From the NCBI GenBank assembly GCA_902799385.1, contig CADCAK010000013.1, forward strand, positions 2,073 through 49,532: a stretch of DNA of 47,460 nucleotides, in the 5' to 3' direction. Shown piece by piece: positions 6,711 to 45,479 of this stretch. The notes under the pieces are model-generated. The model was not told the DNA's origin, ran no database searches, and saw nothing but the letters and a program-made list of their open reading frames with translations. The stretch is from an uncultured bacterium. GTDB lineage: Bacteria; Verrucomicrobiota; Kiritimatiellia; RFP12; UBA1067. A program made the translations under genes and the position numbers. Every line of letters begins with the position of its first letter. Position 1 is the first letter of the stretch.

Positions 6711-6767
6711 GCGTGCAACAATGGGTAAAAACCGTTGGTAACATATAACATAAAACAAGGAGAGTCT

Positions 6768-9836: not shown

Positions 9837-12800
9837 TAGTCCCGGTATGCAACGTAGAGGCGTATCTTCGGCAGTGCCTGGATTCGGTTGTCGGCCAGTC
9901 GCTGCGCGACATGGAGATAATATGCGTTGACGACGGCTCGACCGACGCAAGCGCTGCGATTCTCCGCGAGTATGCGGCAAGGGACGGCCGCGTCAGGGTT
10001 CTGCTGCGCGAGCACTCCGACGCAGGCGCCGCGCGCAACGCCGGCATCGCCGCGGCGACGGGGGAATACCTCGGGTTCGTGGATGCCGACGACTGGTGCG
10101 AGCCGACGCTTTTCGAGAAGGCGTACGCAAAGGCGAAGGCCGTCGACGCCGATTTGGTGTTCTGGCGGCATCGCGAGCGCGACGCCGCCGGCAAGACCCT
10201 GAGGGAGGCCGCGTTCGCGTTGCCTGCTGGCATCCGGGACCCGTTTTCAGGGCCGGACCTCGGGGACAACGTCTTTTCCGCATTCAACCTTGCGCCGTGG
10301 AACCGCATAGTCAGGCGCGACGTCGTACAGCGGTGCCGGCTGGAGTTCCAGCAGATCGAACGCTCCAACGACGTCAGCTTCGGATGCCTGGCGCTGGCGG
10401 TCGCCGAGCGCATCTCGGTCGTCGACGAGCCGCTGTACAACTACAGGGTCCGTGTCGCCGGGAATCTCCAGGCCGAGAATCACAGGACGCCGCTTTCGAT
10501 TGTCGCGGCCTGGAGCCTGCTCGCGAAGGAGCTGGCGGAACGCGGCTTGCTTGATCGGTATCGCAGGGGCGTCGCGCTGGCTTCCATGTATTGCTTCTCG
10601 AGGACGATGGACACGCTGTCGGAGCACGAGGGCGAGTATGCGGCGCTGTTCGGGGCGCTGAAGTCGCTGTTTGAAAAGGACGGGTTCTTTGCGTCGATTG
10701 AACCAGGAGAAATCGGCAATGACATCATGGCGAATTCCCTGAAGATGCTCAGGGCGTCGGATTCGTTTTCGGGGTTTGCCCTTCGGCAGGCGTCGGATTC
10801 GGGAAGGTGGATGGCCAAATTCTACAGGGAACGCCAGCAGGCGCGAAAGGAGCTTGGATGCATGCGGGATGAACTTCCGAAGATAAGGGCGGAGCTGTCC
10901 GGCGCGATAGAAAGGCTGACGACCGCCAGAAGCCTGCCGGGCGTTTCCCTGCTGCTTGTGTCGGACGGCGATGCAGACCGCAGGGCGGACTTCGTGCGCC
11001 ACGCCGGGGAGTCGTCCATCTCCGATTTCGAGATCGTCGACGTCGCCGAGATCTCGGCGAGCGCGCTTGAACGGGTCGGCAAGGATTACCTGGCGATAGT
11101 CAGGCCCGGCAACCGCTATGTCAACGAGTACGCGCTCGAGCTGCTTGTCAATACCGCAGCGTACGAGAAGGCCGATGTCGTCGGCGGCATTGCCTCGGAA
11201 TCGGCCGTGAACGTGTCCAATTTCGTCTTCAACGCCGCATGGCTGCGTAGGAATGCCGACCTGCTTCCGGCCTTGCAGGTCGACGACCAGGCGTTTGTCG
11301 CGGCGGCGATAGCAAGGGCGGGGAAGCACATAGTCCGCAGGCGGGTGTTCACCGAGACGCTGTGCGCAAGCTCGTCGCCGCTTGTCTCCGTGGTGGTCCC
11401 GGCATACAACGCCGAGCGCTATCTCGACAGATGCCTCGGAAGCCTTGTCGGCCAGACGCACCGCAACCTGGAAATCATCGTCGTCGATGACGGTTCTACG
11501 GATTCCACTGCGGACATTGCCAATCGGTGGGCGGCCGAAGACAGCCGGATAAAGGTCGTCCGCAGGCAGAACGGCGGGCAAGGCGCTGCGCGCAATGTCG
11601 GAATGCGCATGGCAGGCGGCAAGTACATTGGCTTTGTGGACGCGGACGACTATGTGGAACTCGACATGTTCGGCCAGATGGCCGAGGCGCTCGAGTGCCA
11701 TCCCGCCTGCGATGTCGCCAAATGCGAGGTCGCGGTCGAATACACGTACAAGGTTTCCGCAGCGGAGCAGAAGGCCACGCAAGCCTATTTCCTCAATCCG
11801 TGCAGGGGCGAGTCCCGCCCCGGGTTTGACGTCGTGAGCGGCACGGATGTAGGTCCGGTGGACAAGCTCTACCGCGCGGATTTCCTGAGGAACAACGGCA
11901 TTCTGTTCCCCGAGGGCGTCAAGAACGAGGACGAGGCGTTCTTCTTCGCCGTATTCTGCCGGATCCGCAATTGCTTCTACATCCCGAGGAGCTACTACCA
12001 CTACCTGCGTAACGAAGGCGGCACGATGGCCGTCCAGCAGAAGACCGCAGACAAGGGCAAGATGCCGGATGCGGTGCAGGTCTTCCAGTTCATTGCGGAG
12101 CTTCTCGAACGTGAGAACCGCCGCGACCTGCTTGGCGTCCTGTACCGGCACATGGTTGGTTTCGTCCAGCGGTTCCTCGGTACGCCGATCGAGGATGCAG
12201 TGTGCAGGCGTATTGCCGGCATCCTGCACGGGACCCGTGCATTCTTCTATGCCGACCTGGTCTGCGGCGCCAACCGCACGTGGGTGCAGAACCGGGTGTT
12301 TGAGCTCATGAACCTTGTCGAGCCGTGCGGGCTGCCGCGCGCCGCCGTGCCGGAAGCGTGGTTCCCGTTGGTCCCCCCTCCGGCGATTTGCGCCGGCGCG
12401 ACCCCGCTCGTCTCGTTTGTCGTGCCGGTGTACAACGCCGAGAAATACATCGCCGTCGCGCTGGAATCCCTCCGGCGGCAGACGTTGCAGGACTTCGAGG
12501 TCGTCTGCATTGACGACGGCTCCGTCGATGACAGCGGAAAGGTTCTCGACTTCTATGCGGGCGTCGATCCCCGCATCAAGGTGTGGCATCTCGAAAACGG
12601 GGGCGTGTCGCGGGCCAGGAACTTCGGCCTCGAAAAGGCGCGCGGCCGCTACGTCGCCTTCTTCGACGGCGACGACAGGCTGCATCCGCGAATGGCCGCG
12701 CGGACTGTCCTGACGGCCGCCCTCGACGACCTGGAGTCGGTCATGTTCGACTATCGGTGCTTCGACTACGATACGCTGAAGCCGGTCGATCACTATTGGT

Positions 12801-15100: not shown

Positions 15101-18100
15101 ATGAAAAAAAGACCACTGACAGCAGTATTTGGAGCAGTTGCGGCTTTGCTCGGGACTTTCGCGGTTCCCGTCGCTGCGGCGACCGTTACTCAGGATGCCG
15201 CCCTCGCGGCGGCGAACGGCTTCGTCGGGCAAGGAGGATTCGGCGCGCGGCTTCTGCCAGGACGTTCGGTCGCGTCCGCCACTGCATGGGGCAACCTTTG
15301 GGTCGTCGCGCTTGAGCCGTCGGGGCACATCGTCGTCGCCGGCTCGGACAAGTGCCCGCCTATCGCGTTCTTCTCGTCGAAAGACTTTGTCGAGCCGGAA
15401 GTCGGCTCGCCTTTTGCGGCCAAGCTCACCGCCGATAGCGCGTGGGCGGCGGAGAAGGAGGCTGATGAATCGGCCGAGGTCAATCCTGAGTGGGCGAAGC
15501 TGACTGCGTCCGTCGGCAGGACCCGGCGTCTGCGCGCCGCGCCGTCGGGCACGACCGGCGTCGTTGTCCCTCTGATGAACTGCGGCTGGGGACAGAGTGC
15601 GCCGTTCAACGACCTCTCTCCGCTTTCCAGCCTCTGCGGCTGTATGGCGACTGCCGCCGGACAGGAGCATCGCTACTGGCGCTGGCCCTATCGCTACGAG
15701 AAGTCGCGCCAGGGAACTCACGGCCTCAGGAACTCGCTTGGCGAATACTCGGACCACGTGCTGCGCCCTGACGGCCGCGTGCCGTTCAACTACGACAAGG
15801 TGGTGGCCTATGCCCCGAATCCATCTTCCACTCCGTGGGCGACTGACAAGGAGGCGACCTATCAGACGGCATGGCTCTCCCTCTGGATGCAGTCGTTGAC
15901 GGGCATGGGCTACAAGCCCGGCGCGTCCGGCGGCACGCAGAAGCTCTGCAACTTCGCCGAACAGTACTGGTTTGAGGCCGGTCCCGTGATGAGCTATTGG
16001 CGCGACGGCTACACTAACCTCTGGAACGCAATCAAGGCCGACCTCGACTTCGGCTCGCCGATCCAGGTAAACTCCCCCGGGCACCAGATGGTCGTTGACG
16101 GCTACGCAATCGAAAACGAGGGCGAGGCGAACGAAGTCGACTACATCAACATCAACTACGGGTGGGGCAGCCCGGAAGGGTGGGTAAATCTCCTTACGGC
16201 TGTGACGGAAAGCACTTCTGGCGGCAAGCTCGCCGACTTCCAGATCGGCTACCGTCCGCAGAAGATCGTTCAGTTCGAGCCGGTTCCCAAGGTGAGCACA
16301 GGCAACATGACGCTCAAATGGCACTTGCCGCCTTGCTACACCAACCGCACGACGGGATTCACGGTTGAAATCGCAAAGGCGGGCGGCGCAACGACAGTCG
16401 ATACGGTTGCGACGCATGAGGAAACTACGACCTACACGGCGGTGGGCCTTGAGAACGGCGGTTCCTACACCTTCACCGTCACGCCGATCATGAGCGATGG
16501 CTCGGAAGCGCGTTCCAATGTCGCGGTCACGACAATCGGCACGCCCAAGGCTGCGCCGGAAATCCTTGGCGTCTCTTCCGTCGCCTGCGGAATCGACCTC
16601 GTCCAGCAGGGCTTCTACATTGAATGCGGACGCGGTGTCACAAACACGATAGACGTCACATGCTCGACCTCCGTTACCAGCCTCGAGACATATTCCAGCC
16701 ATCTGACCGTCCTTCCGGATAACAAGGTCAGCACCGTGGACAATGGCAACGGAAGCTGGACGGTCAATGTCGATGCGACCACGATGGCGAAGGATTGGGA
16801 CGGCGACATGCTGATTCTCACGCTCGTCGCAGCCAACGACGACGGCACCGAGGCGTACAAGAACCTGATGCTCCGCTTCAACTCGATGCGTCAGGAACTG
16901 GGCGGCACGTATGACATCGTCGAAACCGCCGCGAACAATGCGGTGTGGTTCTGTGGCACCACCACGCTCGACGCGAAGGGGCAAAACGTGACATTCGGCG
17001 CAAGTGCATTCTGCGGCACGGGCACGATTACGCTCGCCGACTCGACCGGCGGCGGATCTTTCACGTTCCAGGGCTTGGACAACTTCACGGGAACGCTCAA
17101 GTGGGCGCCGTCTGTTACCGTCAATCTCCCAGCGGATATGGGCAACTTCGCCGGTACGCTCAACTTTGATTCGTACGCCTCGACCTATCGTCTCGCGAGG
17201 AGCCTTGGCAGCAAGGCGAAGGTTTATATCGGCGGCACGACGCAGCTTTACATCGACAACAACGTGACCGTAGATGCGGCGATCACGGGTGGCGGCTACA
17301 TCATGGTCGTCGGTAGTGCGCCGACATTCGGCAATCTCAGTGGCTTTACTGGCCATATCAGCCTTGGCGACTTCGTCAATTCCGGCACAGTTACCATCCC
17401 TGCCGGACAGGAAAAGGGCGTTGTCATCGACAATGGCACCGTAAATCTGATTCTTTCCAGGGCGCAGGTCGCATACGGATATTCCACATCGGCTATAACG
17501 ATGCAGGGTTGGGGCTCGGTAGTGTTCAAGGACGAGTCCGGGAATGTGCTGCAAACCTGGACTATCAGCCAGTCGACATACGCCATCTCGTCCAGCGCCA
17601 ACACCTGGACTCCCGACAGCTTGGGTACCGGCAATTTCTGGGATGCCGCAAGGTGGTCACAGGGCTTGCCGAGCGCGGGCGATTACGTCATCTTCAACGA
17701 CACCGTCGGTGATTCGGAGATGACGCTCAACCTCGCGTCCGACTTCAATCTCGGCTATGTGCTTGTAACCGGAACTAAACTGAATATTTCGGCAGCGAGT
17801 GGTTCAGCGACACTTTCCGTTGATACGTTCAGGAATACGGCCATTGCTGCAATCGCTACTCTCAAGTGTGCGCCGACGGCGGTTGTGCCGGAGGGTAAGT
17901 TGCGCTTGCAAAGTGGGCTTGGGATCAGCTGCGACGTCGATAGTTCCCTTGCCGACAACATGAAGTGGTATTACGACGATACAGTGCCCGCCATGTATTT
18001 TGCGGATATCTGGAAGGGCACCGTTGTGTTCTCCGGCTATGCGGCCGCCGGTCTTGACTTGAGCTATTGGGCAAATGACGATTCCGTAGTCAGGCTCAAC

Positions 18101-21100
18101 GGCGTTACTGGATATCTGGCAAACAAGGAATTCAAATATACGGTTGAACTCGTCGACAAGGGCGAGACCTCGGCACTCAACTGGAGCAACGGTTCCAGCG
18201 GCGCGCAATCTACCTTCGACATCTTGACCGGAACCGGCACGTTCCAGACGACCGCCGGAGGCGGCAACACGGAGAAGGTGCTGATAAAGGATGTTTCCGG
18301 CTTTGCCGGCTCGTTCAACCTCGCCGCGAAGAACGTTGCGATTGCCGATGCGATGCCGGATGACGCGACGGCAAGCAATGGAAGGCTTTATGTCGAGAAG
18401 GAAGTCGAAATCTCCGCCAGTAGGGGATGGGCGGCAAACGGCGGGCTCTATCTCGGCGCGGGTGCCGACCTCACGGTCAGCGGCGCCTTCGCTACCGGCT
18501 CGGCCATCAATACCTATGGCGAAGGAACGGTGTTGACGCTTGAGGACGGCGGGAGCGTAAAGGTCAACGGCGCCATTTCAGGCGACAATGCGCCGACTCT
18601 CAACTTCAAGGCAGGTACGTATCAGATCACCAGGAACGTGACTGAAACGAAGACGGTCAACTTCTGCGCGGCGACAGGCAAGTACACGACTCTCGACGCA
18701 AACGGCAATACATTTACCCTTGGTGCCAACTTCTTCTCCGGCTCGGGCGACGTCTACCTCAAGACCTCCGTCTCTGGCGGTTCGTTTGTGATTCAGGGAA
18801 TTCCCGTCGCCTACACCGGCACGATCTACGTGGATAACGCCATCGGGCTTACGGTTCCCGGCGACCTGTCGTCGATGGGCGGCAAGATCAACATTTCCGA
18901 CATCACGCTTTCGCGCAACTCGTCAAACATCGGCAAGGTCGAAGTCTGCTCAGGCGCGACGCTTCAGGTCGTGCTGACCGACGACGAGGCGATGGAAGGC
19001 TTCACGGCTACGGGCGTTACGCTCAACGGCGGTACAATTGAGTTTGTCGATCAGCGCGGCACGGTTGTCGGCTCCAGCACGGAAAGCCTGGTCTATGTGA
19101 AGCCAGAGGACTATACGGTTCCCAGTCCGGAGGCGACGGCAATCTGGTACAATGACTTCAGCGCGACCAATGATGGCTACACGCTAACTGATTGGCAGCT
19201 GACGCACGGAGAGAACAACTCTTCCGTAACAATTGACCGCAACAATCAAGGTCTGTTTGTTGACTTCGCAAGCGCAAAGGGCTACTTCACCGTTATTGTA
19301 AAGTACTCCGACCTCGCGGCTTCCTCCAGCTACAAGCGTGTCCTTTTTGCGACGACGGGCAACAGCAACTATACGCGTGACCGTTGCGGCATCCGCCTGC
19401 TCACGGACAGCAAGGTGCAGGGTCTGTGGAACGCGTCCTTGTCCGCCAACAACGATGCGGATTACGGCTCCGCCAGCTCTAGCACAGTTCCTTCCGCTGG
19501 TACGCTCGCGTTCGTTTACGACAAGGGCTCTAGCGGCACTTCTGCCTATGTTGCGGGGATCAATGAGTCGTTACCTAGTACTGCGCTTTGGAATAATACC
19601 GCGCTTAAGGGTGGTGACATGTATGGCTTTGCGGTCGGCGGCATGTGCAGGGATGCTGCAGTGTCCGGTGTCGAGGCTGCAAAGGGTATGACGATAACTG
19701 GTCTAGCCATATTCGACAGGGTGCTTACGACATCTGAACTCAAGTATTTCCGTTGGCCTGAGGAAAGCTCGGGCGACGATCCCGAGCCGGAACCAGAGCC
19801 GACTTTGACGGTTTCGCCTGCGTCTGGCGCGGTTGCCGCAGGGACGAAGATGACCGTCACATGCGATAATCCCAACGCCACGATCTGGTACAAGAAACTT
19901 GAGGATGAGGAATATACGGCATACACCGAACCTGTAGAGTTGGCAACGGGAATCAACTACTACTACGTAAAAGTCAATGACGGTGAACCGACGTTGTACA
20001 CATACGTTGTCGCAGCACCGGAGCCGGAACCGGAACCTGAATACGAAGGGCCTGCGCCTGTTGCCGTCTGGGTCACTGGCGAGTTCGGCGACGACAGAAG
20101 CGCGCATGGCGGATGCGAGTTCGCGCTCAATGGCAACACGACAAATGCGGTTGGCGAAATCGTGATCGGCAACGCCACCACTCTTGGCGCGACGATTGCA
20201 GTTCCAAATTATGACAACGCGACAATGCTCGTGAAGTACGAGATTCCGTCTGGTGGTGCGCCAGCTGCGAATTCCGTTCCTGCGTCCGTGTTTGTGACAA
20301 AGGAAATGGGTGCTATTGCTGGCAGCGGTTCGTCCGCCCTTGACGGATATTGGCTAAATGGTTCGAGTATAACTGCTGGTTACGCATTTTCTTCTCCCGC
20401 ACCATCAATCCCGCAGGAAGGATATCTACTCATCTCTGTTCCTGCGAATTCGAATCAGAATCCAGGGAACCACTACACGGCTGCGTATGTCGGCAAAACT
20501 GTTTCTGCGCTGTCCGGCGGCGAGACTTCTGGTTTGAGATTCACGGGCGATAACAATCGCGTAACCAGTATGGGCGTTGGCGGGCCGACTGTCGCTGGTG
20601 CTGTGCCGTGGGCGGGCATGGTTATCAAGGGTGTTGCACTCTTCGACTCTTGGCTCACGCCTGATGACATCAGGGGCTACAAGTTCCCTGAGCAGGGCGC
20701 GGTTCAGCCCGAGGATTCCGACCTCTATGCTATCGAGCCTGTCGCGCGTTGGGTCAACAACTTCAAGACTGCCGAGACGAATGGCTGCACGCTTTCTGTC
20801 AGCGGCACGACTGCCGCCAAGGACGATTCGTTTGGCGGCACGCTCACCATCGGCGATGCTGCGGCGGTGATTGATACGACATCAGCCGAGGCTCTTACCG
20901 TTCTTGTGAAATACCGGGCTGCCCCAAATATTCAAAGCGCTCCAGTAGTTACGTTTGGTGGCGATGCAGCAGTGACGTTTGATTCCGGCATTTGCACTGA
21001 TACATCTGTGGATAGACAATTGGCGGCCTACTACAGTTTTATCTACAACAATAGCCGGATGAGAGGCATATATGCTGTTGATGGCAATCCGACTTTGTCG

Positions 21101-23551
21101 TCTGATGGAGGATATTTGGTCTGTGCTAGAAAATACAACGAATGCCTCGCCTATGTTGGCGATACGCTAGACAATATGACGGGTGGGGTTTGCACGGCAG
21201 GCATGCAAATTTCCAATAGCACCTTGAGGAAAATTGGAATTGGCGGGCAGACCGAACTCTCCAGCAATGATGCAAACATGGTACCGTTCACCGGCTTCGT
21301 CGTCGAAAAGGTCGTTGTCTTCAACGGTTACTATACACCTGACGAAATTCGCTATGTGTCGATTCCTGAAGATGCGGACACGCTTGCAATCGGCAATGGC
21401 AAGACGTGGCGTTTTGCCGCGGGAACGACGCGGACATATACGAACATTGGAACGCTTAGCACGGGCGGCACTATTGCAATAACCAATGCCGCCGAGCTGA
21501 CAGAGGGCTCGTATCCTCTCGCTACTTGGACTACGGCGCAGAAGAAGTCAACTGGTTACGGCCGTGTTGGCACGCTCGATGTCACAGGTCTCCCCGCTGG
21601 ACTTTCAGCCGAACTTGTCTATGGTGCGAAGGCGATTTATCTACGCGTCTGGAATCCGACGACCCAGGCGGAGAAGGGCACCATCAAGGTTTGGCCGTAT
21701 GGCGACTCGATCACAGAGGGCTTCAATGCCGGCGGAACCAGAGCGAACTATCGCGTCCTCTTGGCCCAGAAGCTTTCGATGCTCGGCTACAACGTTGAGA
21801 TGGTCGGTTGCTACGACAAGATAAATAATGCGGATGGCATTGATCCTTCGGGGCAGGCAATCCCCGACGCGTGGAAGTGGCACTCCGCCAAGCATGGTGC
21901 GACTGCCGGTCCAACGACGAGCGCGGCGGTTAGGGCCAACCTTTGCGAGAATGTCGATACCTTGAGCGCTCAGGCGGGCAATCCCGATGTCGTGCTGCTC
22001 CTCGCCGGTGCAAACGACATAGTTCCTGCGACCGGTCGCTCTGCCCAGCAGGTGGTAAGTTCGATTACGAACATTGTCGCGCATCTTGCTACGAACCTGC
22101 CGGACTCGAAGATTGTCGTCGGTAATCAGCTCAATGTCGAACCTGGGTATACTAGCTACAACTACAACCATGTGACCAACATGATTCCTCAAGTCAATGC
22201 GCTCTTGAAGACTTATGCTGATAATTTGCCCGAAGAACTGGTCGGCAAGGTGTTTCTGGCGGATCTCAATTCCTACGTTAAGAGTGGCGAGGATGGCATC
22301 CTATATGCAGACGACCACCTGCATCCCGACTGGTGGGGCCACGACCAGATGGCGGAAGGGTGGCTCTCTATTGTCACCAACCAGTTCACCTCGACTCAGA
22401 CATTCCCGTCCGCGACTGTTCCTACAGCGCCAACAGCCGAGGAGCTTGGTGCTGCGGCGAAGACGGAACTTGAAGCATATCGCCAGGGCTTCAAGCTGGC
22501 GCGCAGGATTGACGCCGCAAGCAACCTCGATACCGCCAATCCATACGCCGCCACTGGCGATGGCGCGACGGAAAACATCGAGAAGGTCGCCTACTTCGTC
22601 GAATACGTCCGCGCCGACAACAACGCCCACAAGTGGGTGTGGGTGGACATGGACGCCTTCGGTACGACGATTGGCGATGTAGGACTGCCATCGGCCAACC
22701 ATCAGCATGTGGTTACTAAGCTTCATGTAAAGTCCAACCACAATGGCATTGACGATATTGCGGCGGGTGACGATTCTGTTACTGGCTTTGTCGAGTTCTC
22801 GCCATACAACTACGATGGTAATGCTTCTGGCGTATCTGGCGCACCGGCGGGCAATGGTTCTTGCTGCGATTGGAACGATACGCTTTCTGAATCCGGCTCC
22901 TACAGCTGTATGCAGGTGCATCGTGTTTTCTCGCCTGCCAAGGCGGCGGCTGACGGAATAACCCGTGGCGGACAGGTATTGTTCGCCTACAACAACTGGC
23001 AGTCCAGCTCGTCGACGGCTGAGTTCGGCATCGGCAACTTCTCGTCGCACTTCTATCGCGGCGCAAGTGACGCGCAGACGCTCGACTATACCTATACTGC
23101 CAATGCGCCCAAGATGAACGCCGACGCCTATTCGGTCAAGCGTATCGAGATCTGGACAAAGGCGACTGATGGCGACAAGGAAACGGCGACGACGGACTTC
23201 CCTGTCCCCTATTCGTGGATCGAGGCCTGCTTCCCCAGCATCTCGGGGCAGCCCGATGCAATGTACGAAACAATGGCGAAGTCGTCTGGCGACAATGGCT
23301 ACAAGTATTGGGAAAGCTACGTGCTGGGGCTGGAGCCGACGAACTCCATGAGCAAGTTCACGGCGACGATTCGCATGGACGGCACGACGCCAATTGTCGA
23401 GTTCTCGCCGACGAACGAGTTGCTGAGGGCGAGCGGCGCGATAGAGTACATCCTTCAGGGCAAGCCGGCGCTTACGAACGACTGGCAGGACGTCGAGTTC
23501 GACGAGCCAGGCGACACCAACCGCTTCTTCCGCGTTAGGGTGACTTGGTAG
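15101..23551 (+). CDS. Giant secreted C10 (streptopain-like) protease / SGNH esterase fusion
   Basis: 2816 aa with a signal peptide (residues 1-27). Residues ~28-130 resemble a Spi-type propeptide. Residues ~150-390 are a C10 peptidase: GCMATAAGQ with Cys181 and GHQMVVDGYA with His328, plus INYGWGSPEGW. An FN3-like module (~400-485) is followed by autotransporter-type beta-helix modules, with a ~100-aa unit seen twice (~610 and ~1180). Three LamG-like modules lie at ~1345-1555, ~1645-1870 and ~1880-2090, with Pro-Glu linkers and a chitobiase-C-like module (~1565-1640). Residues ~2195-2430 are an SGNH hydrolase: GDSIT (Ser2203), GAND (2303-2306), and D2405-H2408 in DDHLHP. The end, FFRVRVTW, has no anchor. 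The ribosome binding site is weak; the start is only 13 bases after the upstream stop. Likely cleaves glycoprotein and deacetylates its glycans. Confidence 0.85.
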   Translation: MKKRPLTAVFGAVAALLGTFAVPVAAATVTQDAALAAANGFVGQGGFGARLLPGRSVASATAWGNLWVVALEPSGHIVVAGSDKCPPIAFFSSKDFVEPEVGSPFAAKLTADSAWAAEKEADESAEVNPEWAKLTASVGRTRRLRAAPSGTTGVVVPLMNCGWGQSAPFNDLSPLSSLCGCMATAAGQEHRYWRWPYRYEKSRQGTHGLRNSLGEYSDHVLRPDGRVPFNYDKVVAYAPNPSSTPWATDKEATYQTAWLSLWMQSLTGMGYKPGASGGTQKLCNFAEQYWFEAGPVMSYWRDGYTNLWNAIKADLDFGSPIQVNSPGHQMVVDGYAIENEGEANEVDYININYGWGSPEGWVNLLTAVTESTSGGKLADFQIGYRPQKIVQFEPVPKVSTGNMTLKWHLPPCYTNRTTGFTVEIAKAGGATTVDTVATHEETTTYTAVGLENGGSYTFTVTPIMSDGSEARSNVAVTTIGTPKAAPEILGVSSVACGIDLVQQGFYIECGRGVTNTIDVTCSTSVTSLETYSSHLTVLPDNKVSTVDNGNGSWTVNVDATTMAKDWDGDMLILTLVAANDDGTEAYKNLMLRFNSMRQELGGTYDIVETAANNAVWFCGTTTLDAKGQNVTFGASAFCGTGTITLADSTGGGSFTFQGLDNFTGTLKWAPSVTVNLPADMGNFAGTLNFDSYASTYRLARSLGSKAKVYIGGTTQLYIDNNVTVDAAITGGGYIMVVGSAPTFGNLSGFTGHISLGDFVNSGTVTIPAGQEKGVVIDNGTVNLILSRAQVAYGYSTSAITMQGWGSVVFKDESGNVLQTWTISQSTYAISSSANTWTPDSLGTGNFWDAARWSQGLPSAGDYVIFNDTVGDSEMTLNLASDFNLGYVLVTGTKLNISAASGSATLSVDTFRNTAIAAIATLKCAPTAVVPEGKLRLQSGLGISCDVDSSLADNMKWYYDDTVPAMYFADIWKGTVVFSGYAAAGLDLSYWANDDSVVRLNGVTGYLANKEFKYTVELVDKGETSALNWSNGSSGAQSTFDILTGTGTFQTTAGGGNTEKVLIKDVSGFAGSFNLAAKNVAIADAMPDDATASNGRLYVEKEVEISASRGWAANGGLYLGAGADLTVSGAFATGSAINTYGEGTVLTLEDGGSVKVNGAISGDNAPTLNFKAGTYQITRNVTETKTVNFCAATGKYTTLDANGNTFTLGANFFSGSGDVYLKTSVSGGSFVIQGIPVAYTGTIYVDNAIGLTVPGDLSSMGGKINISDITLSRNSSNIGKVEVCSGATLQVVLTDDEAMEGFTATGVTLNGGTIEFVDQRGTVVGSSTESLVYVKPEDYTVPSPEATAIWYNDFSATNDGYTLTDWQLTHGENNSSVTIDRNNQGLFVDFASAKGYFTVIVKYSDLAASSSYKRVLFATTGNSNYTRDRCGIRLLTDSKVQGLWNASLSANNDADYGSASSSTVPSAGTLAFVYDKGSSGTSAYVAGINESLPSTALWNNTALKGGDMYGFAVGGMCRDAAVSGVEAAKGMTITGLAIFDRVLTTSELKYFRWPEESSGDDPEPEPEPTLTVSPASGAVAAGTKMTVTCDNPNATIWYKKLEDEEYTAYTEPVELATGINYYYVKVNDGEPTLYTYVVAAPEPEPEPEYEGPAPVAVWVTGEFGDDRSAHGGCEFALNGNTTNAVGEIVIGNATTLGATIAVPNYDNATMLVKYEIPSGGAPAANSVPASVFVTKEMGAIAGSGSSALDGYWLNGSSITAGYAFSSPAPSIPQEGYLLISVPANSNQNPGNHYTAAYVGKTVSALSGGETSGLRFTGDNNRVTSMGVGGPTVAGAVPWAGMVIKGVALFDSWLTPDDIRGYKFPEQGAVQPEDSDLYAIEPVARWVNNFKTAETNGCTLSVSGTTAAKDDSFGGTLTIGDAAAVIDTTSAEALTVLVKYRAAPNIQSAPVVTFGGDAAVTFDSGICTDTSVDRQLAAYYSFIYNNSRMRGIYAVDGNPTLSSDGGYLVCARKYNECLAYVGDTLDNMTGGVCTAGMQISNSTLRKIGIGGQTELSSNDANMVPFTGFVVEKVVVFNGYYTPDEIRYVSIPEDADTLAIGNGKTWRFAAGTTRTYTNIGTLSTGGTIAITNAAELTEGSYPLATWTTAQKKSTGYGRVGTLDVTGLPAGLSAELVYGAKAIYLRVWNPTTQAEKGTIKVWPYGDSITEGFNAGGTRANYRVLLAQKLSMLGYNVEMVGCYDKINNADGIDPSGQAIPDAWKWHSAKHGATAGPTTSAAVRANLCENVDTLSAQAGNPDVVLLLAGANDIVPATGRSAQQVVSSITNIVAHLATNLPDSKIVVGNQLNVEPGYTSYNYNHVTNMIPQVNALLKTYADNLPEELVGKVFLADLNSYVKSGEDGILYADDHLHPDWWGHDQMAEGWLSIVTNQFTSTQTFPSATVPTAPTAEELGAAAKTELEAYRQGFKLARRIDAASNLDTANPYAATGDGATENIEKVAYFVEYVRADNNAHKWVWVDMDAFGTTIGDVGLPSANHQHVVTKLHVKSNHNGIDDIAAGDDSVTGFVEFSPYNYDGNASGVSGAPAGNGSCCDWNDTLSESGSYSCMQVHRVFSPAKAAADGITRGGQVLFAYNNWQSSSSTAEFGIGNFSSHFYRGASDAQTLDYTYTANAPKMNADAYSVKRIEIWTKATDGDKETATTDFPVPYSWIEACFPSISGQPDAMYETMAKSSGDNGYKYWESYVLGLEPTNSMSKFTATIRMDGTTPIVEFSPTNELLRASGAIEYILQGKPALTNDWQDVEFDEPGDTNRFFRVRVTW
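19777..20055 (+). repeat. Two Pro-Glu-rich linker stretches in the giant protein
   Basis: The reading frame carries DDPEPEPEPT near 19777-19806 and APEPEPEPEYEG near 20014-20050. They flank a chitobiase-C-like module and separate LamG-like units. Such acidic Pro-rich linkers usually act as extended spacers between extracellular domains. Confidence 0.6.
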
Positions 23552-38911: not shown

Positions 38912-38940
38912 TTGATTTGCATAGCCGCATTTGGGATAAT
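38912..38940 (+). promoter_or_regulatory. Promoter of the glycerophosphodiester/G1P operon
   Basis: TTGATT (38912-38917), a 17-base spacer, and GATAAT (38935-38940) preceded by TGG, so an extended -10 with both hexamers in place. Predicted start of transcription near 38947, leaving a leader of ~27 nt that contains the strong ribosome binding site GGGAGGAGA (38956-38964). Confidence 0.75.
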
Positions 38941-38973: not shown

Positions 38974-39921
38974 ATGAAGGGCCTCGCATTGGCGACGGTT
39001 CTGGCGGGCGCGTTGGTTGCGTGCGGCGGCGCGGCGGCGGCCGCTGTGGTTCCGCCGCAGGGAACGGAACTGTTCAGGTGCCAGGTGCATCGCGGCGGGG
39101 GGCGGGACACTCGCCCCGACAATGCCCTTGAGACTTTTCTCTGGTGCTGGGGCCACGGCGTCGCGCCGGAGGCCGACGCCCGGCTTACCAAGGACGGCGT
39201 CGCAATCGCGCTCCACGACGAAACGCTTGCGCGCGTAGGGCGCGGCATTTCAAAGAAACTTGCAACGGCGAAGGTAAAAGACCTCGACTGGGCGCAGATT
39301 CGGGATGTGGACACCGGCTCGTATCTCGATCCGTCGTATTCTTCCATTCGAATCACGACGATAGATTCCGTGCTTGCCGCGATGGCGGGGCGGCCCGACA
39401 GACTTCTGTATCTCGACGAGAAGGGTGCACCGCCGGAGCTGGTGGCTGGACTCGCCCGCAAGCACGGCGTCGAAAAGCAGATATACTACACGTCGCCGAA
39501 GTTCGAGCTTGTGGCGCGATGGCAGGATGTCGTTCCTGGCGGATTTGGCATGGTCTGGCTCGGGACGTGGCCGAAGGACAATTCGCCGAAGTCCGTCGCT
39601 CGCGCCGACAAGTTCCTGAGCGGCACTCTCGACCGTATGGAGGCAACGGGATGGAAGGGGGTAAGCCAGGTCCAGATACACATCCGCACGGACCTGTCCT
39701 GTCCCGATCCGTTCTGCCCGTCGTCCGACTGCATCCGCAAGGCGATCAAGCGGCTTCATGCAAACGGCATAACCGTGCAGGCGTTCACATGGACCGAGGG
39801 CGCGAACAAGGAAGCCCTGCGCAAGATATGGAATCTCGGATTCGACAATTTTGCCACGGACGATCCACTTGCGCTGTTTGAACTCCTGCCGGAACTCGGC
39901 AAACGCCATGTGTTGAAGTAG
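38974..39921 (+). CDS. Glycerophosphodiester phosphodiesterase lipoprotein
   Basis: 315 aa from ATG 38974, with GGGAGGAGA at 38956-38964. Lipobox ALVAC gives Cys17 as the lipidated residue, so it is probably attached to the envelope. The GDPD (GlpQ/UgpQ) TIM-barrel signatures follow: HRGGGRDTRPDNALETF, EADARLTKDGVAIALHDETLARVG and YLDEKGAP. The usual HRG...PENT block has PDNA here, so the Glu is Asp. The enzyme hydrolyses glycerophosphodiesters (deacylated phospholipids or polyglycerol-phosphate) to glycerol phosphate and an alcohol. First gene of an operon; the next start is 10 bases downstream. The neighbours (G1P dehydrogenase, HAD phosphatase, GlpT-type carrier) suggest its product is taken up and used. 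Confidence 0.88.
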   Translation: MKGLALATVLAGALVACGGAAAAAVVPPQGTELFRCQVHRGGGRDTRPDNALETFLWCWGHGVAPEADARLTKDGVAIALHDETLARVGRGISKKLATAKVKDLDWAQIRDVDTGSYLDPSYSSIRITTIDSVLAAMAGRPDRLLYLDEKGAPPELVAGLARKHGVEKQIYYTSPKFELVARWQDVVPGGFGMVWLGTWPKDNSPKSVARADKFLSGTLDRMEATGWKGVSQVQIHIRTDLSCPDPFCPSSDCIRKAIKRLHANGITVQAFTWTEGANKEALRKIWNLGFDNFATDDPLALFELLPELGKRHVLK

Positions 39922-39931
39922 GGGAAGAAGC

Positions 39932-41281
39932 ATGGCGATGATGGAAGAGGCTCTTGCCGTCGCAACGGACACGAAGGAATGCATGGTCGGTCCCGGTGCT
40001 GCGGACGGCGCGGCGGCGATGTTCCGCAAGCTGTTCCCGTCGGCGGCAAAGGCGCTTGTAGTCGAAGATCCACGAACTAAGTCCGTCGCCGGCGACAATG
40101 TGGCTTCACGACTCAGGGAGGCGGGAATTGAGGTGGCCGAATACGTGGTGAATCCCGACGGGTCTGACTTCCATGCCACATACGCGAAGGTCGAGGAGGT
40201 ACGCGAGGCGATCCGCGCAAGCGGAGCCGTCGCCGTGGCTGTCGGGTCAGGGACTCTGAACGACCTGACGAAACGCGCATCTGACGAACTGGGGCTGCGG
40301 TACATGGTCGTCGGCACGGCGGCGTCGATGGACGGCTACACGGCCTACGGCGCGGCAATCACGAAGGACGGCATGAAGCAGACGCTTTCCTGCAGGGCGC
40401 CGCTCGGTTGCATCGTCGATAGTGCGGTCGCGGCATCCGCCCCGCGCGAGATGACGGCAAGCGGCTATGCCGACCTCATCGCGAAGATTCCGGCGGGCGC
40501 GGACTGGATGCTTGCCGACGCGATTGGCTCCGAGGCGATCCATCCGCTCGCATGGCGGCTCGTGCAGGAACCGCTGAGGGAGGCGATTTCAAATCCGTCA
40601 GGATGCGCGTCGGGCGACGAGCGCGAGGTGAGGAAGCTATGCGAAGGGCTTGTGATGAGCGGCTTCGCTATGCAGGCGATGGGGTCTTCCCGTCCGGCGA
40701 GCGGCACGGAACACCAGGTTTCGCATTATTGGGACATGGAAGACCTTTCCTTCGGCGGCCGGCCCGTATCGCACGGCTTCAAGGTGGGAATCGGCACGCT
40801 TTTCTCCACGAAGACGCTTGAGTTCCTTCTCCGCCGCGACCTTTCTACGCTCGACGTTGACAAGGCGGTCGCGTCGTGGCCGGCGACGTTCGACGCGCTT
40901 AAGGCGACGTTCCCCGCCGTTTACGGCGACCGCCCCGCGCACATCCGCCGCGCCGAGGGCGAGATGGCGAAGAAGTATTCGACGCCCGCCAAACTGCGCG
41001 AGGAGCTTTCGACGTTCAAGCGCGTCTGGCCGGAACTTTCGCAGCGCATCCGCTCGCAGATAATGCCGTTTGACGAGGTGAGGGAGAACCTGCGCCTTGC
41101 GGGCGCGCCCTGCGAGCCGGAACAGATCGGCGTGACACGGGCGAGGTTCCGCAACACATGCCGCGGCGTGCCGTACATGCGCAACCGCTATTTCGGACTC
41201 GACCTGGTTGAACGGCTCGGACTCATGGACGAATTGCTGGGCGAGCTATTCGGTCCTGGTGGAATCTGGGAAGTGAAATAA
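39932..41281 (+). CDS. sn-glycerol-1-phosphate dehydrogenase (AraM/EgsA family)
   Basis: 449 aa, NAD(P)-dependent, metal-dependent enzyme interconverting sn-glycerol-1-phosphate and dihydroxyacetone phosphate. Signatures: GSGTLNDLTK (nucleotide binding), GTAASMDGYTAYGAA, and metal-ligand blocks GTEHQVSHYWDMED and SHGFKVGIGTL, as in Bacillus AraM. Longer than archaeal EgsA (~350 aa), as bacterial AraM relatives are. The ribosome binding site is GGGGAAG just after the upstream stop. The stop overlaps the next ATG (TAATG). In archaea and Bacillus it works in lipid synthesis. Here the partner genes (GDPD, phosphatase, GlpT) point to oxidation of imported G1P; this is inference. No PcrB-like prenyltransferase is in the window. 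Confidence 0.9.
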   Translation: MAMMEEALAVATDTKECMVGPGAADGAAAMFRKLFPSAAKALVVEDPRTKSVAGDNVASRLREAGIEVAEYVVNPDGSDFHATYAKVEEVREAIRASGAVAVAVGSGTLNDLTKRASDELGLRYMVVGTAASMDGYTAYGAAITKDGMKQTLSCRAPLGCIVDSAVAASAPREMTASGYADLIAKIPAGADWMLADAIGSEAIHPLAWRLVQEPLREAISNPSGCASGDEREVRKLCEGLVMSGFAMQAMGSSRPASGTEHQVSHYWDMEDLSFGGRPVSHGFKVGIGTLFSTKTLEFLLRRDLSTLDVDKAVASWPATFDALKATFPAVYGDRPAHIRRAEGEMAKKYSTPAKLREELSTFKRVWPELSQRIRSQIMPFDEVRENLRLAGAPCEPEQIGVTRARFRNTCRGVPYMRNRYFGLDLVERLGLMDELLGELFGPGGIWEVK

Positions 41282-42150
41282 TGAGCGGCGACCAAACAGC
41301 GTGGAATCTCGCGGGCAAGAACGCATTCGTCTGCGATCTCGACGGAACGCTCTTCATGGGGCCGAACCCGATAGCCCCTGCAGTCGATTTCGTGATACGC
41401 AATACGAATTCGGGACGGTTCAAGTTCTTCTACCTCACCAACAACACGTCGAAGTGTCCCGAGGAATACTTGAAGAAGATCGCGGGCGCGGCGATTCCCG
41501 TGGAAGAAAGCCAGATACTTACGCCGCTCATCACGCTTGAGGCGTACATCCGCGAGAAGGGCTACAGGTCTGTCTATCTCATTGCGGGCGAAAAGGTAAA
41601 GGCGCACATGGCGGAACGGCTCTCGGACGCGGGCGTGTCGCTCGACTACGACCCCGAGCGCAACGAGCTTATTGCCCTCACCTACGACAAGGAGCTGACG
41701 TACGACAAACTCGCCAAGGCGACGGGGCTTTGGAACATGAGGAACTGCCCGCCGTCGCCCATGTGCCCGGTCCGGACGAAGAACCAGACGCCCGTCGATT
41801 TCGTGGCGACCCATCCCGACAACTGCTGTCCGTCGGAGCGCGGCCCTATTCCCGACATCGGCGGCATGATGAAGTTTCTTGAGATTACGAACGGCATGAA
41901 GCCGAGCCATGTGTTCGGCAAGCCCTCGCCCACGCTCCTCGCGCCGGTTCTGGCGCAGTTTGCGCCTAAGGAGATTGCAGTCGTCGGGGACAGGCTGTAT
42001 ACCGACAAGGCGATAGCGGACAACGCGGGAGTCGATTTCGTCTGCGTCCTCTCCGGCGAGACGACGCGAGAGGACCTTGCTGCCTACAAGGGAACGCCGC
42101 CTGCGATAGTCGTTGACACTTTCGACAAGGTTGAAGCGCAAGGCAGCTGA
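41281..42150 (+). CDS. HAD-IIA (NagD/AraL-type) phosphatase
   Basis: 289 aa, haloacid-dehalogenase phosphatase of the NagD/AraL subfamily. Motif I is FVCDLDGTLFMG, with nucleophile Asp19 and Asp21; motif II YLTNNTSK; the motif III lysine lies in HVFGKPSP; motif IV is VVGDRLYTDKAIADNAG. Such enzymes hydrolyse small sugar or glycerol phosphates. The ATG overlaps the stop of the G1P dehydrogenase gene (TAATG). AraL and AraM are also neighbours in the Bacillus arabinose operon, so the pair is a recurrent unit. Possible role: removing excess or toxic glycerol- or triose-phosphate in this pathway. Confidence 0.87.
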   Translation: MSGDQTAWNLAGKNAFVCDLDGTLFMGPNPIAPAVDFVIRNTNSGRFKFFYLTNNTSKCPEEYLKKIAGAAIPVEESQILTPLITLEAYIREKGYRSVYLIAGEKVKAHMAERLSDAGVSLDYDPERNELIALTYDKELTYDKLAKATGLWNMRNCPPSPMCPVRTKNQTPVDFVATHPDNCCPSERGPIPDIGGMMKFLEITNGMKPSHVFGKPSPTLLAPVLAQFAPKEIAVVGDRLYTDKAIADNAGVDFVCVLSGETTREDLAAYKGTPPAIVVDTFDKVEAQGS

Positions 42151-42161
42151 AAGGAGAAGCA

Positions 42162-43484
42162 ATGAAGGACGAAAAGTTCATAAAGGCCCAGTGGCGTTTC
42201 ATCGCGTTCAGCGCGATCTCCTACGCTTTCTTCTACATCGCGCGCAAGAACCTCTCGATGGCGCAGCCGGCCATGCTGGATGAGGGGGTAATCTCCACCT
42301 ATGCGCTTGGAATCGTCATGACAGTCCACGGGGTTCTATACGGCCTTAGCCGTTTCATAAACGGATTCTGGGCCGATCGGCTCAACGGGCGCGTCTTCAT
42401 GGCCGTGGGGCTCGCGCTTTCCGCCGTGACTAATTTCTTCTTCGGGTGTTCAAGTCTCACGCTGTTCTTCGCGCTATTCTGGATTCTTAACGGCTGGGCG
42501 CAGGGCATGGGCTTTCCGCCGTGCGCCAAGATGCTTGCGCACTGGATTCATCCAAAGGAACTTGCGACCAAGATGTCGGTGTGGAACGCTTCGCACAGCG
42601 TGGGCGCGGTGCTCGCGCTCGGGCTTTGCTCCGCGTTGTTTGCGCTTGGCTTTGGCTGGCGCTGGTGCTTCTGGGTTCCTGCCGCGCTCGCGGTGGCGGC
42701 TGCTGTCTTCACCTTCCTCTGCGTGAAGGAGACGCCTGTCGAGGCGGGCTTGCCGCCGTTGGAATTGGGTAACGGGGAAGGGGGAACGTATCCCCCGAGC
42801 GAAGCGAGTCGCCGAAGGCGATGCCCTAGCAGGGGTGGGAATGGGGAAGGGAAGAGTGGGTTGACGGATGCGGAGCGCAGGCGCCTCGTATTTGGCAACA
42901 GGGTGATCTGGCTTGTCGCGCTCGCGAACTTCTTCGTTTATGTCGTCCGGTTCGGGTTCCTCGACTGGGGCCCCACCTTCCTAAAGCAGATGAAGGGCAT
43001 CCCAGTCGCCAAGGGAGGGCTAATGATAATCGCGTTCGAGCTCGCGGCAGTCGTCGGCACGATATTCGCAGGATGGGTGACGGACAAGGTTTTCAAGGGA
43101 CGCGGATGCCGCACGGGAGTGTTCTTCATGCTTTTTGCGGCAGTGTTTGCGTTTGGCTTCTGGTGCCTTCCCGAAGGTGCTCCCGCGTGGCAGGCGACGC
43201 TACTCCTGATGGGGGCGGGGTTCTGCATCTACGGGCCGCAGGCCCTGACCGGCATAATCGTCGCCAACCAGGCGACAAAGGAGGCCGCCGCGCTTGCGAC
43301 GGGCTTTGCGGGGATCATGGGCTATCTTTCAACGACTGTTTCCGGCATCGGCATCGCGTTCATCAAGGAGCAGTTTGGGTGGGGCGTTGCGCTTTGCGCC
43401 ATCGCGGCGTTCGCGATTGTCGGCATGGCGCTTTTCCTGTGCGCGTGGTCTGCCAAGGCCGACGGCTACGCCCGCAAGTCGTAG
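42162..43484 (+). CDS. GlpT/UhpT-type organophosphate:phosphate antiporter (MFS)
   Basis: 440 aa inner-membrane transporter with about 12 TM helices. It keeps the GlpT substrate determinants. YIARKNLSMAQP (Arg28) corresponds to YLVRKNFALAMP with Arg45. ASHSVGAVL has His145 (His165 in GlpT). VVRFGFLDWGPTFLK has Arg263 (Arg269 in GlpT, RYGILDWSPTYLK). A glycerol phosphate is therefore the likely substrate. AAGGAG at 42151-42156. The cytoplasmic loop between TM6 and TM7 carries a GC-rich in-frame insert (~42767-42860; see repeat entry). Last gene of the operon; its 3' end overlaps the convergent regulator gene by 19 bases. Confidence 0.92.
   Translation: MKDEKFIKAQWRFIAFSAISYAFFYIARKNLSMAQPAMLDEGVISTYALGIVMTVHGVLYGLSRFINGFWADRLNGRVFMAVGLALSAVTNFFFGCSSLTLFFALFWILNGWAQGMGFPPCAKMLAHWIHPKELATKMSVWNASHSVGAVLALGLCSALFALGFGWRWCFWVPAALAVAAAVFTFLCVKETPVEAGLPPLELGNGEGGTYPPSEASRRRRCPSRGGNGEGKSGLTDAERRRLVFGNRVIWLVALANFFVYVVRFGFLDWGPTFLKQMKGIPVAKGGLMIIAFELAAVVGTIFAGWVTDKVFKGRGCRTGVFFMLFAAVFAFGFWCLPEGAPAWQATLLLMGAGFCIYGPQALTGIIVANQATKEAAALATGFAGIMGYLSTTVSGIGIAFIKEQFGWGVALCAIAAFAIVGMALFLCAWSAKADGYARKS
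42767..42862 (+). repeat. In-frame palindromic insert in the transporter gene
   Basis: A ~95-base segment encodes an Arg/Ser/Gly-rich loop (TYPPSEASRRRRCPSRGG). It is bounded by imperfect direct repeats, AACGGGGAAGGGGG (42771-42784) and AATGGGGAAGGG (42840-42851). Its core holds small hairpins: TCGCC-GAA-GGCGA (42809-42821), CCCT-AGC-AGGG, and CCCC (42792-42795) against GGGG (42832-42835). Composition differs from the flanks. It resembles a small palindromic repeat element that inserted without breaking the frame, as Rickettsia RPE elements do. Confidence 0.55.
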
Positions 43485-44602
43485 GGCTTGCGCCACTTCT
43501 TCGGGGAAACGCCTTCCGTGTCCCTAAAGATGTTGGTGAAATACGCCGGGTTGCAGAAGCCGAGCTTGTTGGCGATCTCGGCGAGCGAGAGATCGGTGGA
43601 CGCCATCAGCCGCTTTGCCTCGTCCAGCCTAAGTCGCATAAGCATCTTGGACGGCGACAGTCCTATGTCGCCTGCGAAGGCGCGGTCCAGCGCGGCGCGT
43701 GAGACGCCAAGGCGCTCCACTAACTGCGCGGTGGACGGCGGGTTCGCCAACGCGTCCATGTAGATGTCCCGCACGCGGCGGACAATGTCGGAAGATATGG
43801 CGAGCGCATCCGTAGATGCCCGTTCCGTCACGCCCTTTGGCTTTATGAGGATAGGCTTGGCAGGCGGCTTGCCGCCGTTCATCAGCCGTTCCAGAAGGGC
43901 GGCTCCGGCGTATCCTATTCGGTGGATGTCGTGCTGCACTGAGGAAATCGGCACGGCCTGGTTCTCGCAAATCACCGTGTCGTCGCCGACGCCAAGCACT
44001 GCAACGTCGCTTGGAACCGACAGCCCCGACTCGATTGCGGCGGATTCGACGCGTGAGGCGTCGGCGTCGTCGAAGCAGAACACGGCAAGCGGACGCGGCG
44101 CATGGCGGAGCTTGTTCGCAAGCCAGCGCGACAGGGCGTTCCAGTCGTCGGCGCCGGACTTGCGCGAGGCGAGCGCCCATGCCCACTTTTCGCAGTTGCC
44201 CTCCATCGCCTCTGAGAACGCCGCATATCGCAGTTCGTGCTGGTTTCCCCATCCCGTAGAGAACCACGCCGCGTTTTTGTATCGCTTCAACTTGAAATGC
44301 TCTGCGGCCATGCGTCCAATTGCCGCGTTGTCTCCTGCGACGCGTGGCATCTTTACGTCGGGGCGCGTCAGGCTGAGGTCGACGGTGTGGACTCCCTGGC
44401 GGCGAAGTCGGCGCACGTATGAAATCCCCGCGTCGTCGCGAAGGGTAACGAGCGCGCCGTCGCCCCTCCATCCGTCGAACGAGTGGGTGAGATGGTCGGC
44501 GATTGTGAGATGCCACGATTTCGCCTTTGCAAAGAGGGCAATGCCCTCCAACCGCCTTGGGTTCGACGGCGTGAGTAGCAGCAGTACGTTTCGCATCTTC
44601 AT
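43466..44602 (-). CDS. XylR-like AraC-family transcriptional regulator
   Basis: 378 aa. Residues 1-~265 are a LacI/periplasmic-binding-like effector domain (GDNAAIGRMAAEHF, VGDDTVICENQAVPISSV). Residues ~275-378 are an AraC/XylS double helix-turn-helix (GVSRAALDRAFAGDIG, LSLAEIANKLGFCNPAYFTNIF, GVSPKKW). The architecture matches XylR. It starts at ATG 44602, only ~2 nt after the predicted transcription start, with no Shine-Dalgarno: a likely leaderless mRNA. Convergent with the G1P operon, with a 19-base overlap. It likely controls that operon and itself, given shared sequence words in both promoter regions. The effector is unknown; a sugar or glycerol phosphate is possible. Confidence 0.88.
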   Translation of the reverse strand: MKMRNVLLLLTPSNPRRLEGIALFAKAKSWHLTIADHLTHSFDGWRGDGALVTLRDDAGISYVRRLRRQGVHTVDLSLTRPDVKMPRVAGDNAAIGRMAAEHFKLKRYKNAAWFSTGWGNQHELRYAAFSEAMEGNCEKWAWALASRKSGADDWNALSRWLANKLRHAPRPLAVFCFDDADASRVESAAIESGLSVPSDVAVLGVGDDTVICENQAVPISSVQHDIHRIGYAGAALLERLMNGGKPPAKPILIKPKGVTERASTDALAISSDIVRRVRDIYMDALANPPSTAQLVERLGVSRAALDRAFAGDIGLSPSKMLMRLRLDEAKRLMASTDLSLAEIANKLGFCNPAYFTNIFRDTEGVSPKKWRKPYDLRA

Positions 44603-44722: not shown

Positions 44723-44935
44723 ATGAGCGACAAGAGAATCAACAATTCGATTTTCATCATGTTCCTGCTGTCGGGAGCATATTGTGCCGCTCACAACATT
44801 TCTACCAAGGAATTTCTTGCCCTCGACGACAAGTATGCGATTTTGAATTATATAGCCGAATGTCCCGATGTATTCGATTCAATGACCGAGGAAGAAATGG
44901 TCAAGGAGATAGACGAATATGTCAAGGGCGTTTGA
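44723..44935 (+). CDS. DUF3791-family small protein (putative antitoxin)
   Basis: 70 aa. The C-terminal half (ILNYIAECPDVFDSMTEEEM, then VKEIDEYVKG) fits DUF3791, a small acidic helical protein usually found next to DUF3990. No ribosome binding site: start of transcription is predicted ~3 nt upstream, so leaderless translation is likely. The gene end overlaps the DUF3990 gene by 17 bases. By position and family company it is a likely antitoxin or partner. No direct evidence of that function can be read from the sequence. Confidence 0.75.
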   Translation: MSDKRINNSIFIMFLLSGAYCAAHNISTKEFLALDDKYAILNYIAECPDVFDSMTEEEMVKEIDEYVKGV

Positions 44936-45479
44936 ACAACCTCTCTATCACGGCACGATTGAGGCGATTCAGCGAATTGACGTGTCGCGCGGCAGGGCGC
45001 ATAAAGACTTCGGCAGGGGCTTTTACATGTCGATGACTCCAAAACAGGCAATCGGCATGATGCACAAGAAGCTTCGCGAAGCTGTGAGAAGGAGCCGCAA
45101 TGCAGAACGTAGCGAGTTTGTCGAGCATTTGTACAGGGTTCAGCTGAAGCCGTCTTTCGAATCGGAACTCAAGGTGAAGGTGTTCGACATCGCTGACATG
45201 GAGTGGCTTGAGTTCATTTTGATGTGTCGTGAATCAGAACTTCCACACCCACATGGATTCGACATTGTCATCGGGCCTACTGCTGATGACGACACGCTTG
45301 TTTCATTGCAAAACTACTGGAAGGGCGTGTATGGCCCGATTGGGTCGGTGGCTGCCAAGATGGCCCTGCTTTCGGTTCTTGAACCTGAGAATCTTGGAAT
45401 TCAATGTTGTTTGTGCTCCAAGGAAAGTGAATCTTCGGTAATGACATTTGCACCGGTCAACTGGAAAATGTATGTATGA
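44919..45479 (+). CDS. DUF3990 protein, ADP-ribosyltransferase-fold (putative toxin)
   Basis: 186 aa. LYHGTIEAI (His11) and KDFGRGFYMSMTPKQAI (Tyr36) match the first two elements of the H-Y-[EDQ] ADP-ribosyltransferase pattern. GIQCCLCS near the C-terminus (Gln162) sits where DUF3990 proteins have QYCF, the third element. Family assignment is by motif memory; NAD-dependent activity is inferred. It starts inside the DUF3791 gene and ends in an ATGA overlap with the next gene, typical of a toxin-antitoxin-like operon. The region is visibly more AT-rich than the neighbouring metabolic operons, consistent with transfer. Confidence 0.78.
   Translation: MSRAFEQPLYHGTIEAIQRIDVSRGRAHKDFGRGFYMSMTPKQAIGMMHKKLREAVRRSRNAERSEFVEHLYRVQLKPSFESELKVKVFDIADMEWLEFILMCRESELPHPHGFDIVIGPTADDDTLVSLQNYWKGVYGPIGSVAAKMALLSVLEPENLGIQCCLCSKESESSVMTFAPVNWKMYV

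Follow-up and report, generated by a model that had tools for sequence, protein, structure and literature searches.

In Escherichia coli, the glpT-glpQ system combines a carrier for sn-glycerol-3-phosphate (G3P) with a periplasmic diesterase, and GlpD or GlpABC acts inside the cell. Here, we compare this system with a four-gene locus in a 47,460-nucleotide stretch of DNA (hereafter the window) from contig CADCAK010000013.1 of an uncultured gut bacterium of the Kiritimatiellia. As in the E. coli system, the locus encodes an exported glycerophosphodiester phosphodiesterase (GDPD), a GlpT-family carrier and a dehydrogenase predicted to give dihydroxyacetone phosphate (DHAP); however, its dehydrogenase resembles AraM/EgsA, where E. 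coli uses a flavin G3P dehydrogenase, and it has a HAD phosphatase in addition. From the sequence, we lean towards the reading that the operon scavenges glycerol phosphates and that its AraM-like enzyme oxidizes sn-glycerol-1-phosphate (G1P) to DHAP.

Two described systems are closest to this reading. AraL and AraM of Bacillus subtilis lie among arabinose genes in a genome that contains PcrB (PMC3207120; PMC5059525), whereas the window places AraM with GDPD and GlpT, and PcrB was not found in its genome. Growth on G1P, with uptake by GpxB and UgpB, was reported for marine Phaeobacter (PNAS, December 2025; PMC12718374); bacterial G1P uptake is already known with other carriers. The window operon is predicted to share this use of G1P as a nutrient, but Phaeobacter takes it up by ABC carriers and the proposed source is archaeal lipid. 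The terms 'AraM', 'GlpT', 'operon' and 'teichoic' do not occur in the main text of that paper. In the literature searched, bacterial G1P dehydrogenases are treated as lipid-synthesis enzymes, and no catabolic operon of G1P dehydrogenase, GDPD and GlpT was found described in this open literature, subscription papers and preprints being outside its scope. If the catabolic context is a conserved one, many bacterial G1P dehydrogenases would have another job, and a consumer would be named for the mirror-image form of glycerol phosphate that lipoteichoic acid (LTA) contains. The question is testable in the cultured relatives Pedobacter insulae DSM 18684 (AraM-GlpT-HAD) and Opitutaceae bacterium EW11, whose locus (L096) has the order GDPD-AraM-GlpT-HAD-DAO.

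The four genes and the proposed pathway

The earlier note on this DNA described one tight operon, and all four of its open reading frames (ORFs) were found on the forward strand, encoding the GDPD (38974-39921), the AraM/EgsA-like dehydrogenase (39932-41281), the HAD-IIA phosphatase (41281-42150) and the GlpT-like carrier (42162-43484). The intergenic gaps are 10, -1 and 11 bases; this spacing predicts co-transcription, and the four genes are likely to be an operon.

The dehydrogenase matches Fe-ADH_2 in Pfam (PF13685, 1.2e-31). Its fold is nearest to that of B. subtilis AraM, with which it shares 26-29% identity in the alignment, followed by 3ce9 and archaeal G1P dehydrogenases and then by other glycerol dehydrogenases. 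Asp181, His261, His281 and the stretch SRPASGTEH are present in the window protein; Asp181, His261, His265, His281 and SRPASGxEH are invariant in the AraM alignment (A1) and align with the G1P dehydrogenase structures. We take the Asp and His residues to be metal ligands of the Asp/His/His type. Sequence, fold, metal-ligand-type residues and the RPxSGxEH motif thus place the protein in the EgsA/AraM family, as had been proposed. At another locus (L058:1955-3253, genome G053) lies a distant AraM relative in which two stretches common to the others, SxDGY and SRPASGxEH, are missing; it may therefore be inactive or catalytically different.

The GDPD matches PF03009 over profile positions 1-95 of 244 (6.7e-14; 53 bits against a cut-off of 23.6). 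His39, Arg40, Glu66, Asp68, His81, Asp148 and Lys150, which we assume to be the catalytic residues, are all kept, and 34 columns are invariant in the alignment of ten sequences (A2). The AlphaFold2 model (pLDDT 85.5) has GDPD 2pz0 as its best Foldseek match (5.1e-16), so that the domain, the conserved His/Glu/Asp/His set and the fold agree on the family. The protein begins with a signal peptide containing a lipobox-like LVAC with Cys17, in line with the lipid anchor claimed earlier; but an 89%-identical stretch at a related locus (L040) has Ser in place of Cys17, and lipid anchoring is thus not conserved.

The phosphatase is of the NagD/AraL type, as the earlier note had it. Hydrolase_6 (PF13344, 7.9e-17, 61.6 bits) and Hydrolase_like (PF13242, 2.1e-15, 56.8 bits) are both above their cut-offs and, with a DLDGT motif of the DxDGT form, assign it to HAD-IIA; against the HAD-IIA model TIGR01460 it scores 82.7 bits, below the cut-off of 100.15. 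Its structure matches include PDB 1pw5/1vjr (3e-36) and, at a distant level (9.3e-14), the Rv1692-type glycerol-3-phosphate phosphatase 4i9f, which presumably functions in glycerophospholipid recycling; both proteins are HAD-IIA enzymes with glycerol phosphate as a possible substrate.

The carrier matches MFS_1 in Pfam and E. coli GlpT in the PDB (1pw4, 1.2e-68). Arg28, His145 and Arg263, singled out in the earlier note, are present and align with the Arg, His and Arg of 1pw4, which we take to be functional in that carrier. With 327.7 bits against TIGR00881 and 275.5 bits against the GlpT equivalog TIGR00712 (cut-off 632.55), both below cut-off, the protein is assigned at the family level as an organophosphate carrier of the GlpT/UhpC/PgtP type. 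Carriers of the GlpT family are phosphate exchangers.

In the proposed pathway, the exported GDPD would first act on diesters outside the cytoplasmic membrane and set glycerol phosphate free; the most plausible diesters are the LTA or deacylated phosphatidylglycerol of neighbouring cells, in which the glycerol bears its phosphate at sn-1. The carrier would then import it, probably against phosphate and without a strict choice of enantiomer. Inside, AraM would oxidize G1P with NAD(P)+ to DHAP, which would enter glycolysis; any excess of glycerol phosphate would be hydrolysed by the phosphatase to glycerol, with the phosphate released serving the carrier. GlpQ enzymes cleave only sn-glycerol-3-phosphoryl ends, and LTA, an sn-G1P polymer, is resistant to GlpQ (PMC7086022), so a separate enzyme would be needed for LTA; a GDPD able to accept G1P ends could shorten LTA or attack deacylated phosphatidylglycerol. 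As sources, we rank LTA or the head groups of phosphatidylglycerol above archaeal ethers. The GDPD probably needs a free 2-hydroxyl, and since the sn-2 oxygen of archaeal ethers is etherified, these lipids when intact are unlikely to feed it directly; the archaeal source suggested in the earlier note is thus a poor fit.

The enzyme could also run the other way, making G1P from DHAP for lipid or, with the phosphatase, for glycerol as an electron sink. This is the known direction of B. subtilis AraM and archaeal EgsA (PMC5059525), and the phosphatase gene directly follows AraM; yet synthesis of G1P leaves GDPD and GlpT unexplained. Moreover, PcrB, whose absence the earlier note had proposed as a check, was detected in the B. 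subtilis and archaeal positive controls and in none of 58 genomes, including the window genome (G000, 77.5% complete), nor in 20 further genomes, taken from 20 of the 80 AraM loci described below. The archaeal-type lipid role was set aside on this result. The C-terminal domain of GpsA occurs in 51 of the 58 genomes, among them the window genome, which also has a PlsY match; the two together point to ordinary G3P lipids in this organism. We consider G1P synthesis highly improbable and retain the catabolic direction.

Recurrence of the gene set across bacteria

Contigs from one genome per species were scanned with an 11-sequence AraM alignment, which gave at least 594 pattern matches, 580 of which encode a relative. 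Neighbourhoods were counted for the best 80 loci, which are related to each other and thus are not independent events. With both strands counted, a GlpT homologue lies no more than 6 kb from AraM at 39 of the 80 loci, HAD-IIA at 33, GDPD at 24 and a GlpA/GlpD-like DAO at nine; without the nine loci taken as Kiritimatiellae, the values are 33, 29, 19 and 7 of 71, respectively. The density per Mb at 0-3 kb from AraM compared with that at 5-8 kb is 89 versus 0 for GlpT, 71 versus 3 for HAD and 54 versus 3 for GDPD. The ORF maps of the loci miss some carriers that tblastn finds, since ORFs ran long. Within the genus, eight AraM places in seven genomes (the window's own included), counted by hand among 37 AraM match rows, have a GlpT homologue (E <1e-50) within 8 kb, against an expectation of about 0.13 calculated from rounded inputs. 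Chance neighbourhood was rejected on the near/far control and this genus count.

GDPD occurs with GlpT near AraM in Bacteroides, other Bacteroidales, Alistipes, Opitutaceae and Kiritimatiellae. In Bacteroides sp. and Bacteroidales (L098, L108 and L128), AraM, GlpT and HAD are joined by GDPD and/or a GlpD-like DAO, and five Pedobacter loci (L094, L099, L100, L101 and L106) have AraM-GlpT-HAD. AraM shares one cluster with a GlpD-like enzyme (281-335 bits, cut-off 360) in Bacteroidales L108 and L128 and in Opitutaceae EW11. A catabolic-looking context of the same gene families thus recurs across phyla, and the conservation check proposed in the earlier note comes out in favour of its reading; it is the gene set that recurs, while the exact order in the window is a local variant.

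Several points weigh against G1P catabolism by this operon. First, the dehydrogenase scores 163.4 bits against the NCBIfam G1P dehydrogenase equivalog PRK00843, below the cut-off of 413, so that the earlier assignment holds for the family and fails for the equivalog; judged by sequence, the enzyme is a G1P dehydrogenase-like protein of its own subfamily of about 445 residues, not a certified equivalog. This subfamily lies far from the B. subtilis AraM fragment in a tree that was made by a quick method, has long branches and was used only to place contexts near the window (AraM ORFs above 480 residues were trimmed to their last 460; L056 and L060 were dropped for lack of a full ORF, L087 as short, and L063, L114 and L127 as duplicates of L034, L041 and L044). 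To our knowledge, no member of the subfamily has been characterized, and G1P dehydrogenases generally prefer DHAP reduction in vitro. Seventeen of the 80 loci have no GlpT, HAD, GDPD or DAO up to 6 kb from AraM, and the counts take in genes of either orientation. The incompleteness of the window genome makes absences from it soft. B. subtilis AraL showed no activity on G3P in a study that offers no guidance on G1P (PMC3207120), and GGGP synthase homologues with G1P activity have been reported from Bacteroidetes (PMC7852524); the genomes examined here yielded no such homologue. Finally, many AraM genes of Bacteroidales in the nearest larger clade (about 54% identical) stand beside ribulose-phosphate 3-epimerase (RPE), class II aldolase or metallophosphatase genes, with no GDPD or GlpD there, and those of Actinomycetota and Planctomycetota stand beside FGGY kinases and partly RbtT-type polyol carriers. 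GDPD and GlpT are near AraM at other loci of the nearest clade (L072, L081, L083, L085 and L090).

These neighbours bear on the main rival, in which the AraM subfamily would oxidize, and the carrier import, a different polyol phosphate such as ribitol-5-phosphate or an arabinitol phosphate; ribitol teichoic acids might be its source. RPE precedes AraM in Bacteroidales L065-L067, L074, L076 and L125, and class II aldolase does so in L068, L075, L078, L080 and L091, hinting at pentulose phosphates; the orders RPE-AraM-GlpT-MetPhos and AldII-AraM-GlpT occur in Bacteroidales near the window clade. An FGGY kinase is near AraM at 15 of the 80 loci and an RbtT-type carrier at five, and the kinase of L140 is a ribulokinase (651 bits). 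However, the window operon and its closest kin have GDPD, the sister operons have a G3P-oxidase-like DAO and DUF1667, and the Pfam scan of nine ORFs between 34999 and 47327 gave no domain of a kinase, an epimerase or a class II aldolase. Some members of the subfamily may act on pentitol phosphates; for the window operon we regard this substrate as unlikely and keep to glycerol phosphates.

Exchange of dehydrogenases within the genus

AraM is matched in 29 of the 58 genomes. The recurring unit of the genus consists of HAD and GlpT with a G3P-oxidase-like DAO plus DUF1667 and/or AraM, often accompanied by GDPDs. The DAO belongs to a large flavoprotein with BFD-like and pyridine-nucleotide oxidoreductase domains. 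Its best match in NCBIfam, type 2 glycerol-3-phosphate oxidase, has a cut-off of 460 bits; two full-length copies reach 294 and 311 bits, and a truncated one 238. Copies above 1200 bits occur in 13 of the 58 genomes and DUF1667 in 18; neither was found in the window genome in this search, and the window operon has no dehydrogenase gene besides AraM. Both the flavoprotein and AraM are present at L031, L033 and L036, and likewise at L034 with HAD, where no GlpT was seen. In the close relative G026, the flavoprotein shares a contig with AraM at a distance of about 23 kb, and the stretch from AraM to GlpT showed no HAD.

At L153, L154 and L156 (genomes G006, G009 and G024, respectively), HAD and GlpT orthologues of the window accompany the flavoprotein and DUF1667 without AraM. 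These fetched loci would suit an operon that scavenges G3P only, with AraM as an accidental neighbour or minor partner; AraM lies elsewhere in G006 and G009, and none was found in G024. But AraM is the sole dehydrogenase gene in the window operon, the DAO/DUF1667 pair was not detected in its genome, and the proximity of AraM to GlpT extends over several phyla; we give scavenging of G3P alone very little credence. One carrier with a G3P-type dehydrogenase or AraM, depending on the species, is as expected of a glycerol phosphate pathway with interchangeable handedness. Because the genus unit combines or swaps the two enzymes, handling of both enantiomers is likelier than of G1P alone. The reverse use of the dehydrogenase put forward in the earlier note is thus favoured by the recurring context and the absence of PcrB, but its restriction to G1P is not.

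A further possibility is clearance, in which an unselective carrier lets G1P in with G3P, and AraM and the phosphatase remove it, sparing the cell mirror-image phospholipids made by PlsY. PlsY and PlsC of E. coli and B. subtilis take both enantiomers (PMC13400652), so removing imported G1P could protect lipid handedness, and PlsY is present in the window's own genome; marine G1P-binding proteins also hardly discriminate, binding both forms within threefold (PMC12718374). On the other hand, neither the G3P-oxidase-like flavoprotein nor the DUF1667 of the sister operons was detected in the window genome, and since the DHAP formed would belong to central metabolism, clearance and nutrition are not exclusive. 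We judge clearance as the main role improbable and prefer nutrition, in which sister species would add or substitute the flavoprotein and the genus together would cover both enantiomers. In a wider proposal, on which we are evenly divided, the subfamily of about 445 residues (Kiritimatiellota, Bacteroidota, Verrucomicrobiota and Planctomycetota) would be a catabolic sn-G1P dehydrogenase that, with G3P oxidases around one carrier, forms a complete pathway for both hands of the glycerol phosphates of LTA and phosphatidylglycerol; this would explain the scattered G1P dehydrogenase genes in bacteria without archaeal-type lipids.

Regulator, repeat and neighbouring genes

The gene after the carrier (43466-44602, reverse strand) encodes a regulator with Peripla_BP_3 and HTH_18, a periplasmic-binding-protein-like domain and an AraC-type helix-turn-helix. 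It is XylR-like, as the earlier note stated; the facing orientation described there is convergent, tail to tail, with the 3' ends overlapping by 19 bases. A 56% relative sits divergently in front of DAO-DUF1667-HAD-GlpT in L156, and an 85% relative is divergent about 5 kb upstream of the operon in L040. Upstream of the window operon is a weak promoter-like site, TTGATT-17-GATAAT (38912-38940, forward strand), two sites being present in the region against a shuffle mean of 1.5; in the promoter and terminator scan of the region, sites were not in excess of shuffles and one was well placed. The Rfam scan of the window gave no match reaching its gathering score.

The carrier gene contains an 84-bp dispersed REP-like repeat (42768-42851, forward strand), in frame in the central loop. 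It has 19 matches in its own genome, counting the carrier copy and partial ones, and is matched in 23 of 35 genomes of the genus; it is not in the 12 other carriers aligned, among them the 88%-identical one of G026. The carriers of L062 and L159 have other repeat-like inserts at the same place.

Elsewhere in the window, a DUF3990 (PF13151) gene (44919-45479) lies just past the regulator. A 1578-residue ORF (9818-14551) combines three GT2 glycosyltransferase matches with a domain resembling CDP-glycerol glycerophosphotransferase (PF04464, 1.5e-21); a surface polymer bearing glycerol phosphate may thus be made by the organism itself. Direct repeats of 79-300 nucleotides are common to three adjacent ORFs (3980-9743), each with a Listeria-Bacteroides repeat (Flg_new) match. 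Lastly, an ORF of 2816 residues (15101-23551) has a peptidase C10 domain near its N-terminus and a GDSL lipase domain far downstream.

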